Positions 27,671 through 62,645 of a stretch of 64,000 nt of DNA are shown here, one piece after another. The stretch lies in assembly GCF_003752365.1 (NCBI RefSeq), contig NZ_RJUO01000004.1, positions 1 through 64,000 of the forward strand, given 5' to 3'. The first letter of the stretch is position 1; every line of letters begins with the position of its first letter. The translations under genes and the position numbers were made by a program. A model generated the notes under the pieces. It had not been told where the DNA came from, searched no databases, and saw only the letters and a list, made by a program, of their open reading frames with translations. The stretch is from Frondihabitans sp. PhB188. GTDB taxonomy: Bacteria; Actinomycetota; Actinomycetes; Actinomycetales; Microbacteriaceae.

Positions 27671-27700
27671 GGTGGTCGTCCTCAGCTGAGGACGACCACC
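27671..27700. terminator. Bidirectional terminator, perfect 30-bp palindrome
   Basis: GGTGGTCGTCCTCAG followed directly by its exact reverse complement. It lies between the convergent VOC and heliorhodopsin-like genes and overlaps the last codons and stop of the latter. Confidence 0.8.
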
Positions 27701-28320
27701 CACGCGACCACCGACAGACCCACGACGCGCAACCAGAGGGCGGCCGCGCCGGCTCCGCGCCACACCGCCGCGAACTCCGCGACAGCGACAGCGAGCGCCA
27801 CGAGCGTGACGAGCACGACGCCGCCTCCGACAGGGCTGCCGACGATCATCGACCCCACCTGCTGGAACGCGACGATCCCCCACGGAACGATCCCGACGGC
27901 TGAGCCGAAGCCGAGGGCGTGACGCGGGCCGCGGCCCTGGAACATCCCGAAGAGCACCCCGCCCGATGCCAGCGCGTAGATGCCGACGAGTGCGCCGACG
28001 TCTTCGACGCCGTTGAGCAGTGCGACCACGAAGACGACGATCGGCCACGTCAGAAGAGGATCGATCCACGCGCCCAGGCGCCGTGGCACGAAGCGCCCGA
28101 CCGCGAGCAGGGCGACCACGACCCCGAGCGCCACCCCGATATCGACGTGCGCGATCAGGTGCCGGGAGGCTCCCCCGAACGCCGCGGTCACCGGGCGGAG
28201 CGCAGGATCCCGGCCCCCCGCCACCACGACCAGCAGGGCGACCGCCTCCACGGCGAGCAGCACGCCCGCCCACCGTCGCCCGCCCACCGGCCCGGCCGCG
28301 ACTCCACGCCCAGCGCTCAT
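27682..28320 (-). CDS. Heliorhodopsin-like seven-helix membrane protein lacking the retinal lysine
   Basis: 212 residues, seven likely membrane segments. The match to heliorhodopsins runs along the chain. Helix 1 is RWAGVLLAVEAVALLVVVAG, followed by PALRPVT (48C12 has RIAGV and ALPMT). Helix 3 has AWID (RWVE) and GVEDVGALVGI. Helix 4 has LFGMFQ. Helix 5 has FGSAVGIVPW, nearly the family hallmark FG..AGIVPW. Helix 7 reads RVVGLSVVAW where 48C12 has SLVAKSALAW, so the Schiff-base lysine position is Leu202. The counter-ion glutamate position is Asp87, and the two conserved histidines of helices 1 and 2 are also missing. It should not bind retinal covalently. 48C12 residues are recalled from memory. 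Confidence 0.72.
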   Translation of the reverse strand: MSAGRGVAAGPVGGRRWAGVLLAVEAVALLVVVAGGRDPALRPVTAAFGGASRHLIAHVDIGVALGVVVALLAVGRFVPRRLGAWIDPLLTWPIVVFVVALLNGVEDVGALVGIYALASGGVLFGMFQGRGPRHALGFGSAVGIVPWGIVAFQQVGSMIVGSPVGGGVVLVTLVALAVAVAEFAAVWRGAGAAALWLRVVGLSVVAWVVVLS

Positions 28321-28387: not shown

Positions 28388-30931
28388 TCACAAGCCGAGA
28401 GCGGCGCGCAGGAACGGCGCGGTCCGGCTGGACGGGTGGTCGGCCACCTGCTCGGGCGTGCCCTGAGCCATCACCCGACCGCCCGCGTCACCGGCGTCCG
28501 GGCCGAGGTCGATCACCCAGTCGGCCTGGGCGACGATTCGCATGTCGTGCTCGACGATGATGACCGTGTTGCCGCCGTCGACGAGGTCGTGCAGGTGCCC
28601 GATCAGCCGGTCGGAGTCGGCGGGGTGCAGGCCCGACGTGGGCTCGTCGAGAAGGTAGAGGGTGTCGCCGCGCTGTCCTCGGCGCAGCTCAGTCGCGAGC
28701 TTGACCCGCTGGGCCTCCCCGCCCGAGAGCTCCGTCGCCGACTGTCCCAGCGACACGTAGCCGAGGCCGACGTCGAGGAGGGCGTCGACGTGGCGTGCCA
28801 CCTCGGCGTCGGCGCCGAAGAACTCCTTGGCGCGGCTGACGCTCATGGCGAGCACGTCGGCGATGGTGCTGCCGTCGAGCTCGATCTCGAGCGTCTCCGG
28901 GTTGTAGCGCGTGCCGCCGCAGGCGCTGCACAGCGCGTGGACGGTCGGCAGGAAGAGCAGCTCGACCTCCATCGTGCCTTCGCCCTTGCAGACGGGGCAT
29001 CGCCCGGCCGGCAGGTTGAACGAGAAGCGGCTGGCGGCGTACCGGCGGCGACGGGCCTCGGGCGTGGCCGCGAAGCGGGCCCGGATGCGGTCGAAGAGCC
29101 CCGTGTACGTCGCGACGTTCGACCGCGGCGTCCGGCCGATGGGCTTCTGGCTCACCTGGACGACGCGGCGCAGGCGTCCCTCGGGGCCGACCGCGCGCCC
29201 TGAGGTGACGTCCGGGACCGAGGCGAGGAGGGGATCCTGCGCGGCCCCTGCCGGCTCGTCGGCGTCGAGGGACTCCTCGTCGACGTCGGCGCCCAGGCTG
29301 CCTCTCAGCAGGTCGGGGACGGCATGGGTCACCAGCGTCGACTTGCCCGAGCCCGACACCCCGGTGACGGCGGTGAGGGCACCCAGCGGGAAGCTCACCG
29401 ACACGTCTCGCAGGTTGTTCCGGGTCACGTCGAAGAGCTCGAGCCGGTCGTCGCCCGATCGGCGCTCACGGACGGAGGCCGACCCCGGCTCGCCGAAGAG
29501 GTACGCGCGGGTGACGGACTCCTCCACCTCGCGCAGCCCCTCCAGCGGGCCGGAGTAGAGCACCTCTCCGCCCGCGGTCCCGGCACCGGGGCCGATGTCG
29601 ACGATCCAGTCCGCCTGGCGGATCACGTCGAGGGAGTGCTCGACGAAGAACACGGTGTTGCCGGAGTCCTTCAGGGCATGCAGGATCCGGGAGAGCGACT
29701 CGGTGTCAGCCGGATGCAGCCCGGCTGACGGCTCGTCGAGCACGAACACGACTCCGAACAGACGCGACAGCACCTGGGTCGCCAGCCGCATCCTCTGCAG
29801 CTCGCCCGACGACAGCGTCGGCGTCGTGCGGTCGAGCGAGAGGTAGCCGAGACCGAGGTCGATGATCGGCGAGAGCCGGGCGAGCAGGTCGCCGGCCAGC
29901 CGCTGGGCCGCGAGCCGCTTCTCGGGAGCGATCGGAGGCGCGGACGACCAGTCGGGAAGCAGAACCTGCCTCATCAGCTCGGCGATGGCGTTCAACGGCA
30001 TCGCCGCCACCTGGGTGATGTCGTGACCCTCGACCGTGACGGCCAGGGCGTCGGGCTTCAGCCGCCTGCCGTGGCAGGTCGGGCAGACGACGCTCACCAT
30101 GAACTCGGCGGCCCGCTCCCGCATGCGCGCGCTCTTCGAGTTCGCGAACGTGTCGAGGACGTACTTCCTCACACCCAGGAACGTGCCGTAATAGGAGTGC
30201 GGGGCCTTCGCCGCGACCGCCTTGCGCACCTGCGCGGGCGAGAGGTCGCGGTAGATCGGCACCTGCGGGGAGTCCTCCGTGTACAGAGCCCAGTCCCGCT
30301 GCTCGCGTGGCAGGTCTCGCCACGGCACGTCGATGTCGTAGCCGAGGGAGACGAGGCTGTCGCGCAGCTGCTTGCCGTGCCACGCCGAGGGCCACGCGGC
30401 GAGCGCGCGATCGCGGATCGTCAGCGTGTCGTCGGGAACCATGAGCTCCTCGGGCACGTCGTAGACGCGGCCCAGACCGTGGCAGGTCGGGCAGGCGCCC
30501 TGCACGGTGTTCATCGAGAAGTCCTCGGCCAGCAGCAGCGGGGCACCGGGCGGGTAGGTTCCGACCCGCGAGAAGAACATGCGAAGCACATTCGCCAGGG
30601 TCGTCGCGCTCCCGACCGTCGACCGAGCCGTGCCGCCGGTCCGCTGCTGCGGGAGGGCGACCGCAGGCGGCAACCCGTCGATGCGGTCGACATCGGGGGC
30701 GCCGACCTGGTCGATCAGACGGCGCGCGTACGGGGCGACGGACTCGAAGAAGCGCCGCTGCGCCTCGGCGTACAGGGTGCCGAAGGCCAGGGAGCTCTTT
30801 CCCGATCCCGAGACGCCGGTGAAGGCCACCAGCGCATCGCGGGGGATGTCGACGTCGACGTCGCGGAGGTTGTGCTCGCGTGCGCCGCGCACTGCGACCA
30901 CGTCGAGTCGATTGCGGTCATCAGTCGTCAC
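28388..30931 (-). CDS. UvrA2-like ABC ATPase (excinuclease A paralogue)
   Basis: 847 residues with two ABC ATPase halves. Half 1: TGVSGSGKSSLAFGTLYAEA, zinc motif CPTCHGLG, LSSGELQRMRLA, FVLDEPSAGLHP. Half 2: TGVSGSGKSTL, CPVCKGEGTMEVE with CSACGG, LSGGEAQRVKLATEL, YLLDEPTSGLHP. It is about 100 residues shorter than housekeeping UvrA (~950), mainly because the UvrB-binding region is reduced, as in class II UvrA proteins linked to drug resistance and repair. No uvrB or uvrC nearby. Confidence 0.92.
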   Translation of the reverse strand: MTTDDRNRLDVVAVRGAREHNLRDVDVDIPRDALVAFTGVSGSGKSSLAFGTLYAEAQRRFFESVAPYARRLIDQVGAPDVDRIDGLPPAVALPQQRTGGTARSTVGSATTLANVLRMFFSRVGTYPPGAPLLLAEDFSMNTVQGACPTCHGLGRVYDVPEELMVPDDTLTIRDRALAAWPSAWHGKQLRDSLVSLGYDIDVPWRDLPREQRDWALYTEDSPQVPIYRDLSPAQVRKAVAAKAPHSYYGTFLGVRKYVLDTFANSKSARMRERAAEFMVSVVCPTCHGRRLKPDALAVTVEGHDITQVAAMPLNAIAELMRQVLLPDWSSAPPIAPEKRLAAQRLAGDLLARLSPIIDLGLGYLSLDRTTPTLSSGELQRMRLATQVLSRLFGVVFVLDEPSAGLHPADTESLSRILHALKDSGNTVFFVEHSLDVIRQADWIVDIGPGAGTAGGEVLYSGPLEGLREVEESVTRAYLFGEPGSASVRERRSGDDRLELFDVTRNNLRDVSVSFPLGALTAVTGVSGSGKSTLVTHAVPDLLRGSLGADVDEESLDADEPAGAAQDPLLASVPDVTSGRAVGPEGRLRRVVQVSQKPIGRTPRSNVATYTGLFDRIRARFAATPEARRRRYAASRFSFNLPAGRCPVCKGEGTMEVELLFLPTVHALCSACGGTRYNPETLEIELDGSTIADVLAMSVSRAKEFFGADAEVARHVDALLDVGLGYVSLGQSATELSGGEAQRVKLATELRRGQRGDTLYLLDEPTSGLHPADSDRLIGHLHDLVDGGNTVIIVEHDMRIVAQADWVIDLGPDAGDAGGRVMAQGTPEQVADHPSSRTAPFLRAALGL

Positions 30932-35604: not shown

Positions 35605-36912
35605 TTGAACGTGACGGGCCCTGCGCTCCGCAGACGAATCGGCGTGCTCTCCACCTCCGTCATCTCGCGATGGCCGCGGGCCGGCGTCGCGGATTCGGGC
35701 CGGATCGTGAGCGCCGGAATGCGTCGCTTCGACCGGCTCTTCGACCTCATCGTCGGCGGCTTCGGGATCCTCTACGCGCTGCAGACCGCCGACTCGCTGG
35801 TCGCCGGACTCCCCTCCCTGTCGAACCCGCTCGGAGTCGCCATCATCGTGCTGGTGTGCATCGGCGTCGCCGCCGGTGTCGGTCCTCTCGTCGCTCCCGC
35901 GCACGCCGCGCGCGTCTTCCTCGTCGGGGCGGCGGTCTACGGAGTCGCCCTCCTGCTGTGGGCGCATACGGTGACGCCGCCTGTCCCGGTGAATCCGATG
36001 CCCTGGCTGATCGCCGTGTGGCCGGTCGGCGCCGCCTATCTCGCGCGGGGATCGCGGACCCTCTTCGTGCCGATCGTGATCGCGACCGCCGTCAGCGCTG
36101 TGGCCAGCGTCGCCCTGCGGTTCCGCGGCGACGTGGCTGCGCCCGACGTCGCCGTCGACAGCCTCTTCATGACGGGGCTCGCGCTCGTGCTGGTCCTCCT
36201 CCTCGGAACCGTCCGGCACCGCGTCGTGGCCGCCGCGCTGGCGCAGCAGTGCTCGGTCGACAGCTTCGCCGCCGCGCAGCTCGAGGAAGCGACCGAGCAG
36301 GAGCGCAAGCGGACGGACGCGCTGCTGCACGACGCCGTGCTGACGACGTTCCTCTCGGCTGCCTCGGCCGACGACGACGACGCAGAAGAACTCGCCTCGC
36401 GGATGGCGGCGAACTCCCTGCGCGTGCTCCTGCATGTCAATGCCGTCGGCCGCAGCGAAGACGCCGTGCCCTTCGGGCAGATCGTCGCCGACCACCGCGA
36501 CCAGCTCGGCGCCTGGCTGAGCCGCTTCGATCACGACCTCGCCGCGGTGGAGGTCGTGATGCTCCCCGAGAACGTCGCCCGGGCCCTCGTCGACATGCTC
36601 GCGCACTCGCTGGCGAACAGCGTCCAGCACGCCGAGGGAGCCACCCGTCGAACCGTTCGAGCCCACCAGCTCGGGTCGGACGGCATCCGCATCGTGATCG
36701 AGGACGACGGGTGCGGCTTCGACCCCGAGGCACTCGGACAGCGGGGCAGCGGGGGTGGCAGCGAGTCGTCCCGCGCGCTCCGCGCGCTGGAGGGACGGGT
36801 CGATATCGATACCGCTGCGGAGACCGGTACCCGCATCGTCCTCAGCTGGGGGTCCGTCGCCATCGTCGGCACGGAGCTCCTCGTCGAACAGGAAGACCGG
36901 GCACGGCCGTGA
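35605..36912 (+). CDS. Membrane sensor histidine kinase-like protein (HATPase domain)
   Basis: About 435 residues. Six or so membrane segments (residues about 40-210) are followed by a coiled region with ERKRTDALLHDAVLTTFLSA, which resembles the HisKA_3 phosphoacceptor box (His in LLHD). An ATPase domain follows with N-box DMLAHSLANSVQHAEG and G1 box EDDGCGFD. TTG at 35605 is chosen because GGGAGG ends six bases before it; GTG at 35611 is the alternative. It overlaps the next gene by GTGA. No response regulator gene is adjacent. Confidence 0.82.
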   Translation: MNVTGPALRRRIGVLSTSVISRWPRAGVADSGRIVSAGMRRFDRLFDLIVGGFGILYALQTADSLVAGLPSLSNPLGVAIIVLVCIGVAAGVGPLVAPAHAARVFLVGAAVYGVALLLWAHTVTPPVPVNPMPWLIAVWPVGAAYLARGSRTLFVPIVIATAVSAVASVALRFRGDVAAPDVAVDSLFMTGLALVLVLLLGTVRHRVVAAALAQQCSVDSFAAAQLEEATEQERKRTDALLHDAVLTTFLSAASADDDDAEELASRMAANSLRVLLHVNAVGRSEDAVPFGQIVADHRDQLGAWLSRFDHDLAAVEVVMLPENVARALVDMLAHSLANSVQHAEGATRRTVRAHQLGSDGIRIVIEDDGCGFDPEALGQRGSGGGSESSRALRALEGRVDIDTAAETGTRIVLSWGSVAIVGTELLVEQEDRARP

Positions 36913-41839: not shown

Positions 41840-43054
41840 TCACTCCGAGGGCGCGACGCCGAGCTGGCGCACCAGCCTCGGGATCTGCTCCCTGAACGGG
41901 AAGAACCCGCGCGACGCATGCGGCCACGCCAGGCTGTCCCACCGACGGCGGACGCTGACGAGGGCGACCCCTTCGGAGGCGAGGACGGGACGCAGCTTCT
42001 CGAGCCTCTCGTGGACGGGGCCCATCGGTGCCGTCGGGACGACCACGGTGTCGAGCTGCTCGGACTCCGCCCAGCGCAGGACGGTGGAGGGCCGCGTGTC
42101 GGCGAGGAGCTGCGCCGGGCGGCCGCCGGCATCGAGTGTGCGGGCTGCGGCGTCGTCGAGCGCCGTCGCCGTGAACGCCGCCACGGCCTCCGACGCCTCG
42201 AACGGAGATCGCTCTCCCGAGTCGGCGACGGCGGCGGTCGCCACCAGCCGGTCGGCGAGCCCGGGCTGCTCGGCGAGCAGGCTGCCGGCCTCGAGGTCCT
42301 CCTCGTGCAGCAGCAGGCCGACGCGATCGCCGAGCTGTCCCACGACGTCGTCCGGCTCGATCGCCACCCGGGGCGGGAGGGGGTCTTCGGAGAGCGCCCG
42401 GGCCTCGCCGGCGAGTCCGGCAGGCGAGAACCGCCCCTCCGTGTACTTAGCGATGTTGGAGGCCGAAGCGAGGTAGGTCTTGCCCGTGGTCTGGAGGCCG
42501 GCGACCCAGCGCCACGACAGCGTGTTCGACGCCGCATCCCCGTCGAGCAGGTGCCGGTAGAAGAAGTCGGCGCCGAGCTGCCAAGGCAGGCCGAGGGTGA
42601 AGATCCAGATGCTGGCGAACCACATCCGCGTGTGGTTGTGCAGGTAGCCGGTGTCGATGAGCTCGTGCACCCAGGCGTCCATCGCGTCGATGCCGGTCCG
42701 CCCGGCCACGGCGTCGAGATAGGCCTGCGGGAGATCGCCGATCGCGAACTCGCCCACGTCGCGGCGGTAGCGACGCCACACCTCGGGGTTCTGCTCCAGC
42801 CAGCCCTTCCAGTAGGTGCGCCAGAACACCTCCTGCACGAACTTCTCGGCGCCGCGGAGGCTGTGCCGGTCGAGGACGGCGGCGACGACCTCGTGCTCGG
42901 TCACCAGGCGATGGCGCACGTAGGGCGACAGCTCCGAGACGTTGTCCCTCGACACTCCGAGGTCGTGGTTGCGGTCGCGGGCGTAGTCGGAGCCCGCGCG
43001 GGGGACGAACTCGTCGAGCGCGTCGAGGCCGGCGGATCGGGTGGGGATGAACAC
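41840..43054 (-). CDS. Photolyase/cryptochrome-like flavoprotein with rearranged domains
   Basis: 404 residues. The protein begins directly with the FAD-binding half of photolyases: SPYVRHRLVTEHEVV, EKFVQEVFWRTYWKGWLE, TGYLHNHTRMWFASIWIFTL and DGDAASNTLSWRWVAGLQTT (residues about 42-210). The usual N-terminal alpha/beta (antenna) domain is absent. Residues about 235-404 instead hold an alternating alpha/beta region (VGLLLHEEDL, LRWAESEQLDTVVVPTAP, SVRRRWDSLAWPHA) that resembles that missing domain moved to the C-terminus. It may repair UV damage or sense blue light. GTG start at 43054; start uncertain. Confidence 0.8.
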   Translation of the reverse strand: MFIPTRSAGLDALDEFVPRAGSDYARDRNHDLGVSRDNVSELSPYVRHRLVTEHEVVAAVLDRHSLRGAEKFVQEVFWRTYWKGWLEQNPEVWRRYRRDVGEFAIGDLPQAYLDAVAGRTGIDAMDAWVHELIDTGYLHNHTRMWFASIWIFTLGLPWQLGADFFYRHLLDGDAASNTLSWRWVAGLQTTGKTYLASASNIAKYTEGRFSPAGLAGEARALSEDPLPPRVAIEPDDVVGQLGDRVGLLLHEEDLEAGSLLAEQPGLADRLVATAAVADSGERSPFEASEAVAAFTATALDDAAARTLDAGGRPAQLLADTRPSTVLRWAESEQLDTVVVPTAPMGPVHERLEKLRPVLASEGVALVSVRRRWDSLAWPHASRGFFPFREQIPRLVRQLGVAPSE

Positions 43055-57585: not shown

Positions 57586-57882
57586 ATGCCGAGACCCTTC
57601 CCTGTCGAGTTCCGGAGGAGAGCCGTCGCGCTCGTCCGGGCCGGCAAACCGATCACTACCGCTGCTGTCGAGTTGGGCGTGAGCGCGGCCGCCATCCATA
57701 ACTGGGTCAGGCAAGACCAGATCGACCGGGGCGAGCGTCCCGGGATTACCACGCCGGAGAGCATCGAGTTGGCGAAAGCGAGGAAACGGATCCGGCAGCT
57801 CGAGGAGGAAGTCGCGATCCTCAAGAAAGCCTCGAAGCTGTTCGGAGAGGACCGGCCGCACCCAAAAGAGTTCACCCGGTGA
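57586..57882 (+). CDS. IS3-family transposase OrfA
   Basis: 98 residues: HTH EFRRRAVALVRAGKPITTAA and SAAAIHNWVRQDQ, followed by a leucine-zipper-like coil (KARKRIRQLEEEVAILKKAS). The stop overlaps the orfB GTG start (GTGA), and orfB lies in the -1 frame. CCAAAAG shortly before the stop is a possible slippage site for an OrfAB fusion. Confidence 0.92.
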   Translation: MPRPFPVEFRRRAVALVRAGKPITTAAVELGVSAAAIHNWVRQDQIDRGERPGITTPESIELAKARKRIRQLEEEVAILKKASKLFGEDRPHPKEFTR

Positions 57883-58739
57883 TCGACGCCCTCGTGGCTG
57901 ACGGTCATCGGGCGAAGCTCTGCTGCCGGCTCCTCCAAGTCAGCAGCCCCGGTTATTACAAGTACAGAGCCCGTCCGATCTCGGCGACACAGATGCGCCG
58001 CCAATGGCTCACCGGGCTGATCCGAGAAGTCCACACGGCCTCACGGCAGACCTATGGGTCCCGCCGCGTCCACGCCGAACTCACTCTTGGCATGGGCGTC
58101 AGAGTCAGCGAGCGGCTCGTGGCGTTGCTCATGTCGCAGGCGAACATCGTTGGATTGCCGGGCCCAGCGAAGGTCAAACGGCTCCACGGCGTCGCCACCG
58201 CTGATGATCTCGTGCACCGCAAGTTCCATCGGCTGGCGCCGAACGAACTCTGGGTCACGGACATCACGGAGCATCCGACGCGAGAAGGGAAGGTCTACTG
58301 CTGCGCCGTGATGGACACGTTCTCGCGGAAGATCGTCGGCTGGTCGATCGACTCCGCCCAAGACACGCACCTCGTGGTCAATGCCCTCGACATGGCCATC
58401 AAGGCCCGCAAACCCGGTGCCGGCGGGATCGTTCACGCCGACCATGGCACGCAGTTCACCTCGTGGGCGTTCACGAACAAGATCAGGGCCGCGGGGCTGA
58501 TGCCCTCGTTCGGCACGATCGGCGACTGCTACGACAACTCGATGATGGAGTCCTTCTGGTCGAGCATGCAGATCGAGCTGCTGAACCGGAAGAAGTGGCG
58601 CACCCGGGTGGACCTTGCGAACGCCATGTTCGAGTACATCGAGATCTTCTACAACCGCCAGAGACGCCACTCGAAACTCGGATACATCACGCCGATCGAG
58701 CACGAGCTACGCTTCGACAAAACCTTTATCACCGCCTGA
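57879..58739 (+). CDS. IS3-family transposase OrfB (DDE integrase core)
   Basis: 286 residues. Helical N-terminal part with RQTYGSRRVHAELTLG, then the rve core: first Asp in ELWVTDITEHPT, second in GIVHADHGTQFTS, Glu in SMMESFWSSMQIELL, followed by YNRQRRHSKLGYITP. No interruption, so likely functional when fused to or working with OrfA. Confidence 0.93.
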   Translation: MIDALVADGHRAKLCCRLLQVSSPGYYKYRARPISATQMRRQWLTGLIREVHTASRQTYGSRRVHAELTLGMGVRVSERLVALLMSQANIVGLPGPAKVKRLHGVATADDLVHRKFHRLAPNELWVTDITEHPTREGKVYCCAVMDTFSRKIVGWSIDSAQDTHLVVNALDMAIKARKPGAGGIVHADHGTQFTSWAFTNKIRAAGLMPSFGTIGDCYDNSMMESFWSSMQIELLNRKKWRTRVDLANAMFEYIEIFYNRQRRHSKLGYITPIEHELRFDKTFITA

Positions 58740-61445: not shown

Positions 61446-62645
61446 CTACGCCGGCGTCGCCTCGTACGTCTCGTTTCTCGCATCTACGGTTACAGGTTCC
61501 GGCAGGATGGGCGGCATGTCCGACGAATCGACTTCGAGGGTTGCCCCGTAGAGGTCCTCGACGCTTTCCTCGGGAACACCCAGGAGACTTGCCACGGGAG
61601 CGGCTCCGACTGCGCCGTTCTGGAATGCACCGATGAGGGCACCCAGTAGGCGGCCAGGCAGAACGCTGCGCTCAGCAAGAGTCTCCGTGCGCGCATAGAA
61701 GCGCTTCTGGAGTTCCTCGTCTCCGAGGCGATTCGCGAAGCCGCTGACGCTCCCGGAGAGGACAAAGTCACGGCCTTCCGCGTTCGTACGGCCAAGATTG
61801 TGCAGGCGGAAGGTAGCTGTTTCGCGCGACACGTCACAGTCGAGCATCAAGCGAGCGACTGCATGAATGAGTGATCGGCTCGATGCGTTGATAGCTTCGT
61901 CGACCTTCTCCGGAGGTAAAAGGAATGCGGCCGCGAAGGCGTTTACAAACCTTTCCTCAACGCTGGAGGCGCGGAAGTTGGTGTCGCTTGTCACGGCGAC
62001 TCCGCCCTGAATAAGGACGTGTCCTAGTTCGTGCGCCAACGTGAAGAGTGCGCGGGCACGAATCTGATTGGCATTGACGGCGATGAGTCGCAGGCGGGGG
62101 TCTGTGATCGCACCCCCTAGGACTGCGTCGTCGAACCGTTCCAAGAGGACATCGATGCCGAGCCTGTCGGAAATCGCGCGCGCAAGAACGTTGAATCGGG
62201 ATGCGCCGTCAATGTCCACGCCCAGTTGATTCCGCGCCCAGGCCGCCAAGGCCGCAGACGACGCAACGTAATTGCGGAAGTCGACCGGCGGCTTGCTCTT
62301 CCAGTCCGGCACACTCTGCAAGGAGGGGGCGTCATCAATAGCCGTGACGAGTCGAGCCAGGCTGCGCAACCGTGCCACGAGGGGACTCGTCTGCGCGCGA
62401 GTCTCCTCCGCCGTCCGTGCTGCAACTGAGACCTCCGCAGCCAACGATTGCGGTTCGAGCAAAGCGAGTGGTGACAAGCCAAGGGCTTTGGCTATCGCAA
62501 CGATCTCCTGAGCCTTCACAGCCCTGTTACCCGACTCGATCTGCGACATTGCGCTGCGGGAGATGCCGATGGTCGACGCCAAGACCTGGGATTCCATCCT
62601 GGCGGCCTCACGAGCAGACCGAATCAGGGCGCCAACATTCTCCAC
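61446..62645 (-). CDS. XRE-family HTH protein with ImmA/IrrE-type metallopeptidase domain
   Basis: 399 residues. N-terminal Xre HTH (LIRSAREAARMESQVLASTI and GISRSAMSQIESGNRAV, residues 6-45). The peptidase domain carries the zinc motif LFTLAHELGHVLI (about 200) and the downstream EERFVNAFAAAFLLP (Glu ligand). The C-terminal ~130 residues are helical. This layout (COG2856 with HTH) is common in mobile elements and toxin-antitoxin loci. GTG start has no ribosome site, but TTAAGC lies about 7 bases upstream, so a leaderless transcript is likely. GAAA(A)TC repeats (about 62665-62680) may be its operator. Confidence 0.88.
   Translation of the reverse strand: MENVGALIRSAREAARMESQVLASTIGISRSAMSQIESGNRAVKAQEIVAIAKALGLSPLALLEPQSLAAEVSVAARTAEETRAQTSPLVARLRSLARLVTAIDDAPSLQSVPDWKSKPPVDFRNYVASSAALAAWARNQLGVDIDGASRFNVLARAISDRLGIDVLLERFDDAVLGGAITDPRLRLIAVNANQIRARALFTLAHELGHVLIQGGVAVTSDTNFRASSVEERFVNAFAAAFLLPPEKVDEAINASSRSLIHAVARLMLDCDVSRETATFRLHNLGRTNAEGRDFVLSGSVSGFANRLGDEELQKRFYARTETLAERSVLPGRLLGALIGAFQNGAVGAAPVASLLGVPEESVEDLYGATLEVDSSDMPPILPEPVTVDARNETYEATPA

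Follow-up and report, generated by a model that had tools for sequence, protein, structure and literature searches.

A lysine-less branch of heliorhodopsin relatives in the Microbacteriaceae and its member in Frondihabitans sp. PhB188

The stretch of 64,000 nucleotides of Frondihabitans sp. PhB188 analysed here (the window; positions 1 to 64,000 of contig NZ_RJUO01000004.1) carries on its minus strand, at 27682..28320, a gene for a lysine-less seven-helix membrane protein of 212 aa, recognized by its open reading frame and by profile and fold matches. The protein very probably belongs to a branch nested within the heliorhodopsins (HeRs) that lacks the retinal lysine and the greater part of the Schiff-base cavity, possesses invariant residues of its own, retains the HeR fold according to prediction and evolves under purifying selection. 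The open reading frame is intact from ATG to stop, and there is no lysine anywhere in the chain. The original prediction, that a family member had lost covalent retinal binding and was nevertheless kept as an intact gene, is borne out by the nested lysine-less clade, its invariant residues and the purifying selection on it. Judged by its sequence, the window protein has almost certainly lost covalent retinal binding, and it would thus be light-blind, being without a retinal Schiff base.

In a broad survey, seven helices and a conserved lysine in TM7 were taken to define a bona fide rhodopsin (PMC9601134), a criterion that would discard lysine-less HeRs, while the NCBI HeR model would give at least one of them (L087) the name heliorhodopsin. 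Lysine-less type-1 rhodopsins are already known (PMC10308929). No report of a lysine-less HeR clade was found in a literature coverage that was without most subscription papers, and priority is unproven. If the present reading is true, type-3 rhodopsins would here have given rise to a receptor lineage free of retinal, the first of its kind, in cells many of which still use retinal elsewhere. Such a clade offers a test of the reuse of a photoreceptor scaffold and, standing beside a lysine-bearing intermediate, would allow light-dependent and light-independent HeR function to be separated, an open question in the field.

Relation to the heliorhodopsins

Searched alone, the window protein matched PF18761 at E 3e-5 with 23.9 bits (cut-off 26.7), over residues 85-184 only, and NF038020 HeR with 26.7 bits (cut-off 100); both curated HeR cut-offs were thus missed, and single-sequence phmmer reached 48C12 at E 0.013. 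PF18761 was the only family found in a Pfam scan up to E 1, the type-1 family PF01036 being absent, and no other gene in the genome matched PF18761. With a profile of 28 lysine-less proteins, which includes the window protein itself, 48C12 was found at E 7.5e-39 nearly over its full length (profile 6-243 of 247) and TaHeR at E 3.2e-24, the sole non-HeR entry up to E 1 being 7ue2 (E 0.16). The resemblance to HeRs falls short of the curated thresholds for the single sequence, whose match to PF18761 has a low E-value but a score below the cut-off, and is strong with the profile of relatives. Common descent with the HeRs becomes secure only when this profile, the tree and the fold prediction are taken into account.

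The scores of other lysine-less members fall on both sides of these thresholds: L172 passes PF18761 with 41.3 bits, whereas against NF038020 L087 passes with 110.8 bits and L211 fails with 29.8. A lysine-bearing intermediate, L208, reached 183.9 bits with PF18761 (slightly different ends). L087 (6989-7771), the same protein as L180 of Frigoribacterium sp. CG_9.8, lies over the NCBI equivalog cut-off for 'heliorhodopsin HeR', and public annotation probably calls this lysine-less protein a photoreceptor.

Predicted structure and topology

The model of the window protein (pLDDT 89.7, pTM 0.84) consists of a helix at residues 12-35, strands at 41-47 and 53-60 and then six helices, which makes seven helices in all and, in the A-B loop, a hairpin. 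A Foldseek comparison with the PDB gave ten matches at E<=0.001, all of them HeRs, with a best TMq of 0.81 against 48C12; matches to the type-1 rhodopsin fold appeared only at E 0.064 and above. For a divergent member (L199) a weaker model was obtained (pLDDT 80.1, pTM 0.72); at E<=0.001 it matched six PDB entries, every one of them the 48C12 HeR. A fold of different topology, which would have spoken against HeR kinship, was not seen in these predictions. Assuming that the N-terminus is inside, the inner loops of the window protein hold five basic and no acidic residues and the outer loops three basic and four acidic, or 8/0 and 3/4 when four residues are added on each side, a pattern compatible with the N-in orientation. 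In the window protein the B-C and F-G loops are shortened relative to those of HeRs.

Distribution of the lysine-less proteins

When 150 genomes of the same family were searched with the window protein, matches were obtained in 28, and ten of these were combined into a profile (A1) that matched in 84 of 398 family genomes and in 26 of 396 order genomes, two of these 26 lying within the family. The two A1 searches yielded 123 proteins, of which 31 were without the lysine, 91 had it and one was a fragment. All 31 come from the family of the window, the Microbacteriaceae, while the order proteins from outside it have the lysine in 24 of 24 cases; within the family the lysine-less proteins are patchy (31/398 genomes). 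Across the phylum, PF18761 matched in 109 of 396 genomes, and the lysine was present in 89 of the 90 matches that were read (30/30 and 59/60), a count that is no census outside the family, as PF18761 would miss many lysine-less proteins. The exception (L291, G909 contig C52) is a decayed piece of 45 residues from outside the family, with Glu at the lysine position.

A second profile (A2), whose patterns derive from lysine-less motifs, gave 48 loci in a scan of named genomes, of which 19 repeat proteins from the genome searches. They are found in Frondihabitans, Curtobacterium, Subtercola, Frigoribacterium, Cryobacterium, Salinibacterium, Agromyces, Microcella, Amnibacterium, Microbacterium, Labedella and Yonghaparkia, and in less well placed MAGs. 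The lysine position is occupied by another residue in 45 of the 48; L208 has Lys there, and L188 and L201 are not long enough for a decision. The 31 proteins and 25 new ones make up 56 lysine-less rows, with one pair above 92% identity; twelve named genera or more are represented, and all rows come from Microbacteriaceae or unplaced actinobacterial MAGs. The suggested survey of actinobacterial relatives at position 202 has thus revealed a loss common to 56 proteins, the window protein being no one-off.

Scanning the named-genome contigs with the window sequence alone gave no confirmed relative, the viral contigs held none when searched with A2 and with one HeR, and plasmids gave no match; a search of the viral contigs with a further profile (A3) found two HeRs, both with the lysine. 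The contig of L196 bears the title Acidobacteria bacterium G2_29 (a MAG), probably wrongly, since its lysine-less gene matches the Amnibacterium loci L198 and L215, as do two genes next to it. Two copies, L217 of Cryobacterium breve ERMR7:08 and L188 of Salinibacterium xinjiangense, look frame-shifted or truncated in these assemblies.

Phylogeny and the order of events

In a tree of 64 rows calculated without the lysine column, one branch (100/100) parts 33 lysine-bearing from 31 lysine-less proteins. On addition of phylum HeRs and of the named loci (90 rows), L208 and L217 came to lie between the lysine-less rows and the HeRs of Microbacteriaceae. A 92-row tree rooted on the archaeal TaHeR joined the lysine-less rows, L208 and L217 in one clade (100/99), with six Microbacteriaceae HeRs as its sister (100/89); within it L208 and L217 branch first, and 53 lysine-less rows form a clade beside them (100/96). 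G108, G150 and G066a have long branches and an unsure position. On the simplest count, these sequences would imply that the lysine was lost once along the stem leading to the family and a second time in the frame-shifted-looking L217.

L208 (7968-8735, Cryobacterium algoritolerans MDT1-3) is a lysine-bearing HeR and a natural intermediate. Of the eight residues of the lysine-less signature described below it has six (N, Y, G, A, T, L), and both His, the Arg, the Glu, the Ser and the Lys of the HeR cavity are still present. Because signature and lysine occur together in this protein, most of the signature predates the loss of the lysine.

Changes at the retinal site and the new signature

Residues were compared in an alignment of 63 lysine-bearing and 56 lysine-less rows, L208, L217 and two fragments being excluded from both sets. 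In the window protein the retinal lysine is Leu202 (27715-27717, within the codons at 27712..27720, minus strand, placed by alignment columns, with coordinates counted from 28320, where the ORF starts). Asp87 (28060..28062, minus) stands at the counter-ion position, which is Glu in all 63 lysine-bearing rows, and Leu22 and Arg76 at the positions of the two conserved histidines (48C12 H23 and H80/82). The Leu in place of the lysine, the Asp counter-ion and the absence of the two histidines had been proposed by eye, and the alignment confirms each of them. The remaining escape, another alignment that places a lysine at the Schiff-base position, is closed to a protein without any lysine.

The same cavity positions have changed over much of the branch. 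The His corresponding to 48C12 H23 falls from 61/63 lysine-bearing to 10/56 lysine-less rows, the H80/82 His from 61/63 to 3/56, the Ser at S237 from 63/63 to 16/56 and the helix-D Asn from 63/63 to 0/56. The Glu counter-ion, invariant in the lysine-bearing set, is retained in 35 of 56 rows, with Glu or Asp in 46, and the Arg and Glu of the cavity cap, each 63/63 before, in 33 and 26 of 56. No lysine-less row retains both His, the Glu and the Ser together. Met113 and Asn136 (L218 numbering), which we take to line the retinal pocket, are invariant in the 63 lysine-bearing rows and present in none of the 56. A bond between a Ser and an Asn reportedly joins HeR helices 3 and 4; presuming that its columns are rightly assigned, the Ser is lost in 45 and the Asn in all 56 of the lysine-less rows. 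For TaHeR Glu-108, Arg-105/Glu-227, His-23 and His-82, the roles assumed here are those given in PMC9385722.

In place of the lost residues the branch has a signature of eight, which in the window protein are Asn103, Tyr115, Ala116, Gly148, Ala151, Gln154, Thr172 and Leu176 (residues 103-176, 27793..28014, minus). Asn103, Gly148, Thr172 and Leu176 occur together in 56/56 lysine-less rows and in 0/63 lysine-bearing ones, and all eight in 51/56 versus 0/63; taken singly, some are found among the lysine-bearing rows as well (Asn103 in 11%, Ala116 in 35%, Ala151 in 33%). From the secondary structure of the model and the assumed N-in topology, the signature would be placed in the outer half of helices C-F and the lost cavity residues in the inner half.

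Several charged residues vary together. In the subclade of the window, an Asp counter-ion goes with an Arg at the 48C12 Ser237 position in 11/11 rows, in the window protein Arg198, one helix turn before Leu202 (27727-27729, minus, from alignment columns); among the 56 lysine-less rows this Arg is absent outside the subclade, so that the association comes from one clade only. Over the 53 lysine-less tree rows, an Arg at the helix-B His (the Arg76 position) is present in 35 of 44 rows with the acid and in 0 of 9 without it, and in 50 of 53 the Arg and the acid of the cap are either both retained or both missing. Placed on the tree, the acid/Arg pair offers four independent contrasts, of which on average 3.4 go in the same direction and none in the opposite (median p 0.25), and the cap pair five, in the same direction or with no change; neither result is significant. 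Correlated ion pairs are hence suggestive only at the level of these alignments, and since 10 of the 56 lysine-less rows have no counter-ion acid, an ion pair there would not be general.

Selection

Nei-Gojobori dN/dS ranged from 0.17 to 0.54 (median 0.29) in 15 lysine-less pairs and from 0.02 to 0.24 (median about 0.06) in ten lysine-bearing pairs, all hand-chosen and compared by a method that is crude for DNA so rich in GC. Because L217 looks broken, the L208-L217 pair, the sixteenth, was left out. By this sequence measure the lysine-less branch is under purifying selection, and its evolution, faster than that of the lysine-bearing pairs compared, fits relaxed constraint too.

Rhodopsins and retinal enzymes in the same genomes

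A match to a type-1 rhodopsin is present in 26 of 31 lysine-less genomes, in 42 of all 53 genomes with only lysine-bearing HeRs (21 of 30 chosen ones) and, among the roughly 314 family genomes that lack a HeR match, in 46. The type-1 search covered 396 genomes and the HeR profile search 398; two of the 114 genomes in the former match only below the family cut-off, and because the genomes are related, the p value of the comparison should be treated with caution. Blh-type retinal enzymes were matched in 20/31 lysine-less versus 4/30 chosen lysine-only genomes. A lysine-bearing HeR accompanies the lysine-less one in 10 of the 31, and in the other 21 none was found. The genome of the window has a type-1 rhodopsin of 304 aa on another contig (L249, 7264-8178, G000 contig C6), with a helix-G lysine seen by eye and no NCBIfam name at E<=1e-5; PF15461 had no match in this genome, while other genomes were matched in one such search.

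The idea that the lysine was lost for want of retinal was rejected for the group on account of the Blh-type and type-1 matches in 20 and 26 of its 31 genomes, although the genome of the window has no PF15461 match and five of the 31 have no type-1 rhodopsin. In G389 (contig C1, 1091034-1091605) the type-1 match is in two pieces, possibly a broken gene; this genome keeps both a lysine-bearing and a lysine-less HeR.

Genomic neighbourhood

The window gene is flanked by UvrA-like and glyoxalase-fold genes. The former (28388..30931, minus, 847 aa) ends 67 bp before the start of the lysine-less gene, so that the two are possibly on one transcript; its protein carries UvrA_DNA-bind (PF17755), passes TIGR00630 with 853.8 bits (cut-off 729.8) and misses NF001503 UvrA with 870.6 (cut-off 1147). 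Among 69 contexts of ±8 kb, the UvrA-like protein matched in the window alone, and no such gene turned up beside the other lysine-less genes examined. No consensus promoters or terminators were found around the window gene, which carries little weight in such GC-rich DNA.

Homologues of genes that adjoin the lysine-less gene in sister loci lie 7-14 kb away in the window. A photolyase-type FAD-binding protein (41840..43054, minus; PF03441, partial), 13.5 kb from the lysine-less gene, is 84% identical to one encoded 3 bp upstream of it in Curtobacterium sp. Leaf261, and a histidine-kinase-like ATPase protein (35611..36912, plus; HATPase_c PF02518) is 70% identical to one encoded 150 bp downstream of it in Frondihabitans sp. 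Leaf304. This arrangement hints at an older neighbourhood that was later rearranged.

No gene is common to all lysine-less neighbourhoods when neighbours are clustered with codon-position filtering in place of a real gene caller (the unfiltered version was swamped by shadow ORFs), and since the neighbours differ between genera, no pathway is indicated. In Curtobacterium, each of the eight lysine-less genes has a photolyase-family gene no more than 2.8 kb upstream on its own strand, which is a photolyase-related DPRP gene in seven and, in the eighth, a FAD_binding_7 photolyase-type gene at a distance of 3 bp. L208 has a photolyase-family gene 3.5 kb away on the opposite strand. Two photolyase queries matched within 8 kb in 9 of 60 contexts, that of L208 among them, versus 0 of 9 contexts of lysine-bearing HeRs. 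A DUF2256/DUF3253 gene is found directly upstream in two early-branching members, L095 (G066) and L208.

Comparison with known systems

With the HeRs (type-3; PF18761, NF038020; 48C12, TaHeR) the lysine-less group shares descent, a predicted seven-helix fold with A-B hairpin, a charge pattern compatible with N-in and the Pro-Trp of helix E. It differs from them in the absence of the retinal lysine, the loss, for the most part, of the counter-ion, the cavity His, the Ser and the Arg/Glu, the invariant residues of its own and, for the window protein, the shorter B-C and F-G loops. Like Rh-noK and the FArhodopsins, its members are rhodopsin homologues kept after loss of the helix-G lysine; however, both of these are type-1 proteins (PMC10308929). 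Rh-noK comes from marine betaproteobacteria, where its gene stands in tandem with one for a rhodopsin, and the flotillin-associated FArhodopsins come from aquatic (freshwater) bacteria, with a flotillin gene alongside, while the present group derives from type-3 and has no fixed neighbour. For Rh-noK, reconstitution of the lysine has been described (PMC10308929). The window locus lacks the tandem functional rhodopsin gene of Rh-noK. HeRs that regulate other proteins have been described for glutamine synthetase (AbHeR, PMC9529153), photolyase (TfHeR, PMC9769723) and an ABC transporter (OcHeR, PMC11109279). They share the ancestral scaffold with the lysine-less group, and photolyase-family genes recur near the Curtobacterium members; these regulators differ in that they bind retinal and respond to light.

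Possible function

The branch probably does its job without any need for light. Taken together, the retention of the predicted fold, ion pairs that are either preserved or substituted and the newly invariant residues point to a folded, selected protein whose input site would have moved. In the subclade of the window, Arg198 in helix G may replace the charge of the protonated Schiff base and face Asp87 in helix C, while in most other members the helix-B Arg might pair with the retained Glu instead; with an ion pair fixed in this way, the bundle would stay in a dark-like state and no longer be switched by light. The working site may have shifted into the outer half of helices C-F (Asn103, Tyr115, Gly148, Ala151, Gln154, Thr172, Leu176) and may receive its input there from a molecule that is small or apolar, or from a second subunit in the membrane. 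That the site moved in this way and that the protein is a light-independent membrane sensor or regulator is proposed tentatively, at a little under an even chance. The stepwise course, in which the outer-half site would have arisen while the lysine was present (the state of L208), followed by a single loss of the lysine and the replacement of the Schiff-base charge by an Arg-acid pair to give a light-independent receptor, is likewise possible, if somewhat more apt to be wrong than right.

Other readings of the same data have to be set against this one. The protein might have kept a dark activity of HeRs and bind a partner constitutively, modulating a cytoplasmic enzyme such as photolyase or another repair protein without light. 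AbHeR is described as altering the kinetics of glutamine synthetase in the dark, with Km going from 27.05 to 12.75 mM (PMC9529153), and as it acts on its partner in the dark, the idea keeps some plausibility. It further agrees with the binding of photolyase by TfHeR (PMC9769723), with the photolyase-family genes near all eight Curtobacterium members and L208, and with the photolyase-type and UvrA-like genes of the window at 13.5 kb and 67 bp. The photolyase matches are nevertheless confined to 9 of 60 contexts, the neighbours of other groups differ, and in Curtobacterium seven of the eight loci show one and the same gene pair, in what is largely a single inherited neighbourhood. The newly conserved residues would moreover sit in the outer membrane half and not in cytoplasmic loops, and the B-C loop is short, as is the F-G loop, in which we presume K227 of TfHeR to lie. 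Photolyase binding by TfHeR requires the charged loop residues R162 and K227 (PMC9769723), and a constitutive partner-binding regulator is on balance unlikely, if by no means negligible. It is distinctly unlikely that the protein is a light-blind subunit which tunes a retinal-binding rhodopsin, HeR or type-1, in a mixed oligomer, as proposed for Rh-noK (PMC10308929). This precedent and the presence of type-1 rhodopsins, lysine-bearing HeRs and Blh-type enzymes in the same genomes favour it, but the type-1 rhodopsin of the window genome is on another contig, potential HeR or type-1 partners are missing from 21 and five of the 31 genomes, respectively, and the co-occurrence is similar in lysine-only genomes and may just mark sunlit habitats in genomes that are not independent.

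A pocket that still holds retinal or a carotenoid non-covalently would suit the many genomes with retinal-enzyme or type-1 matches and the preserved predicted fold; the disappearance of Met113 and Asn136 from all 56 rows means a change beyond the lysine and makes such a binder quite improbable. A decaying relic under weak constraint, already disfavoured, would explain the raised median dN/dS, the two broken-looking copies and the patchy presence in the family, yet all 15 pairs stay below 0.55, four residues are invariant in 56 diverged rows and the proteins are spread over many genera, so that this outcome must be rated very improbable. As to the protein being no HeR relative at all, or its helix G being misaligned, the single-sequence scores under the curated cut-offs gave that view its footing; it is refuted by the profile match to 48C12, the HeR-only fold matches, the strong PF18761 score of L208 and a chain in which there is no lysine to misalign, and its chance is practically nil.

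Other features of the window

Between 56000 and 64000 the GC content of the window drops from about 0.70 to 0.60-0.62. Judged by eye, this part contains an ORF pair like an IS3-type transposase (57586-58739) and an ORF like an XRE-type regulator (61446-62645), and it is possibly a mobile island.
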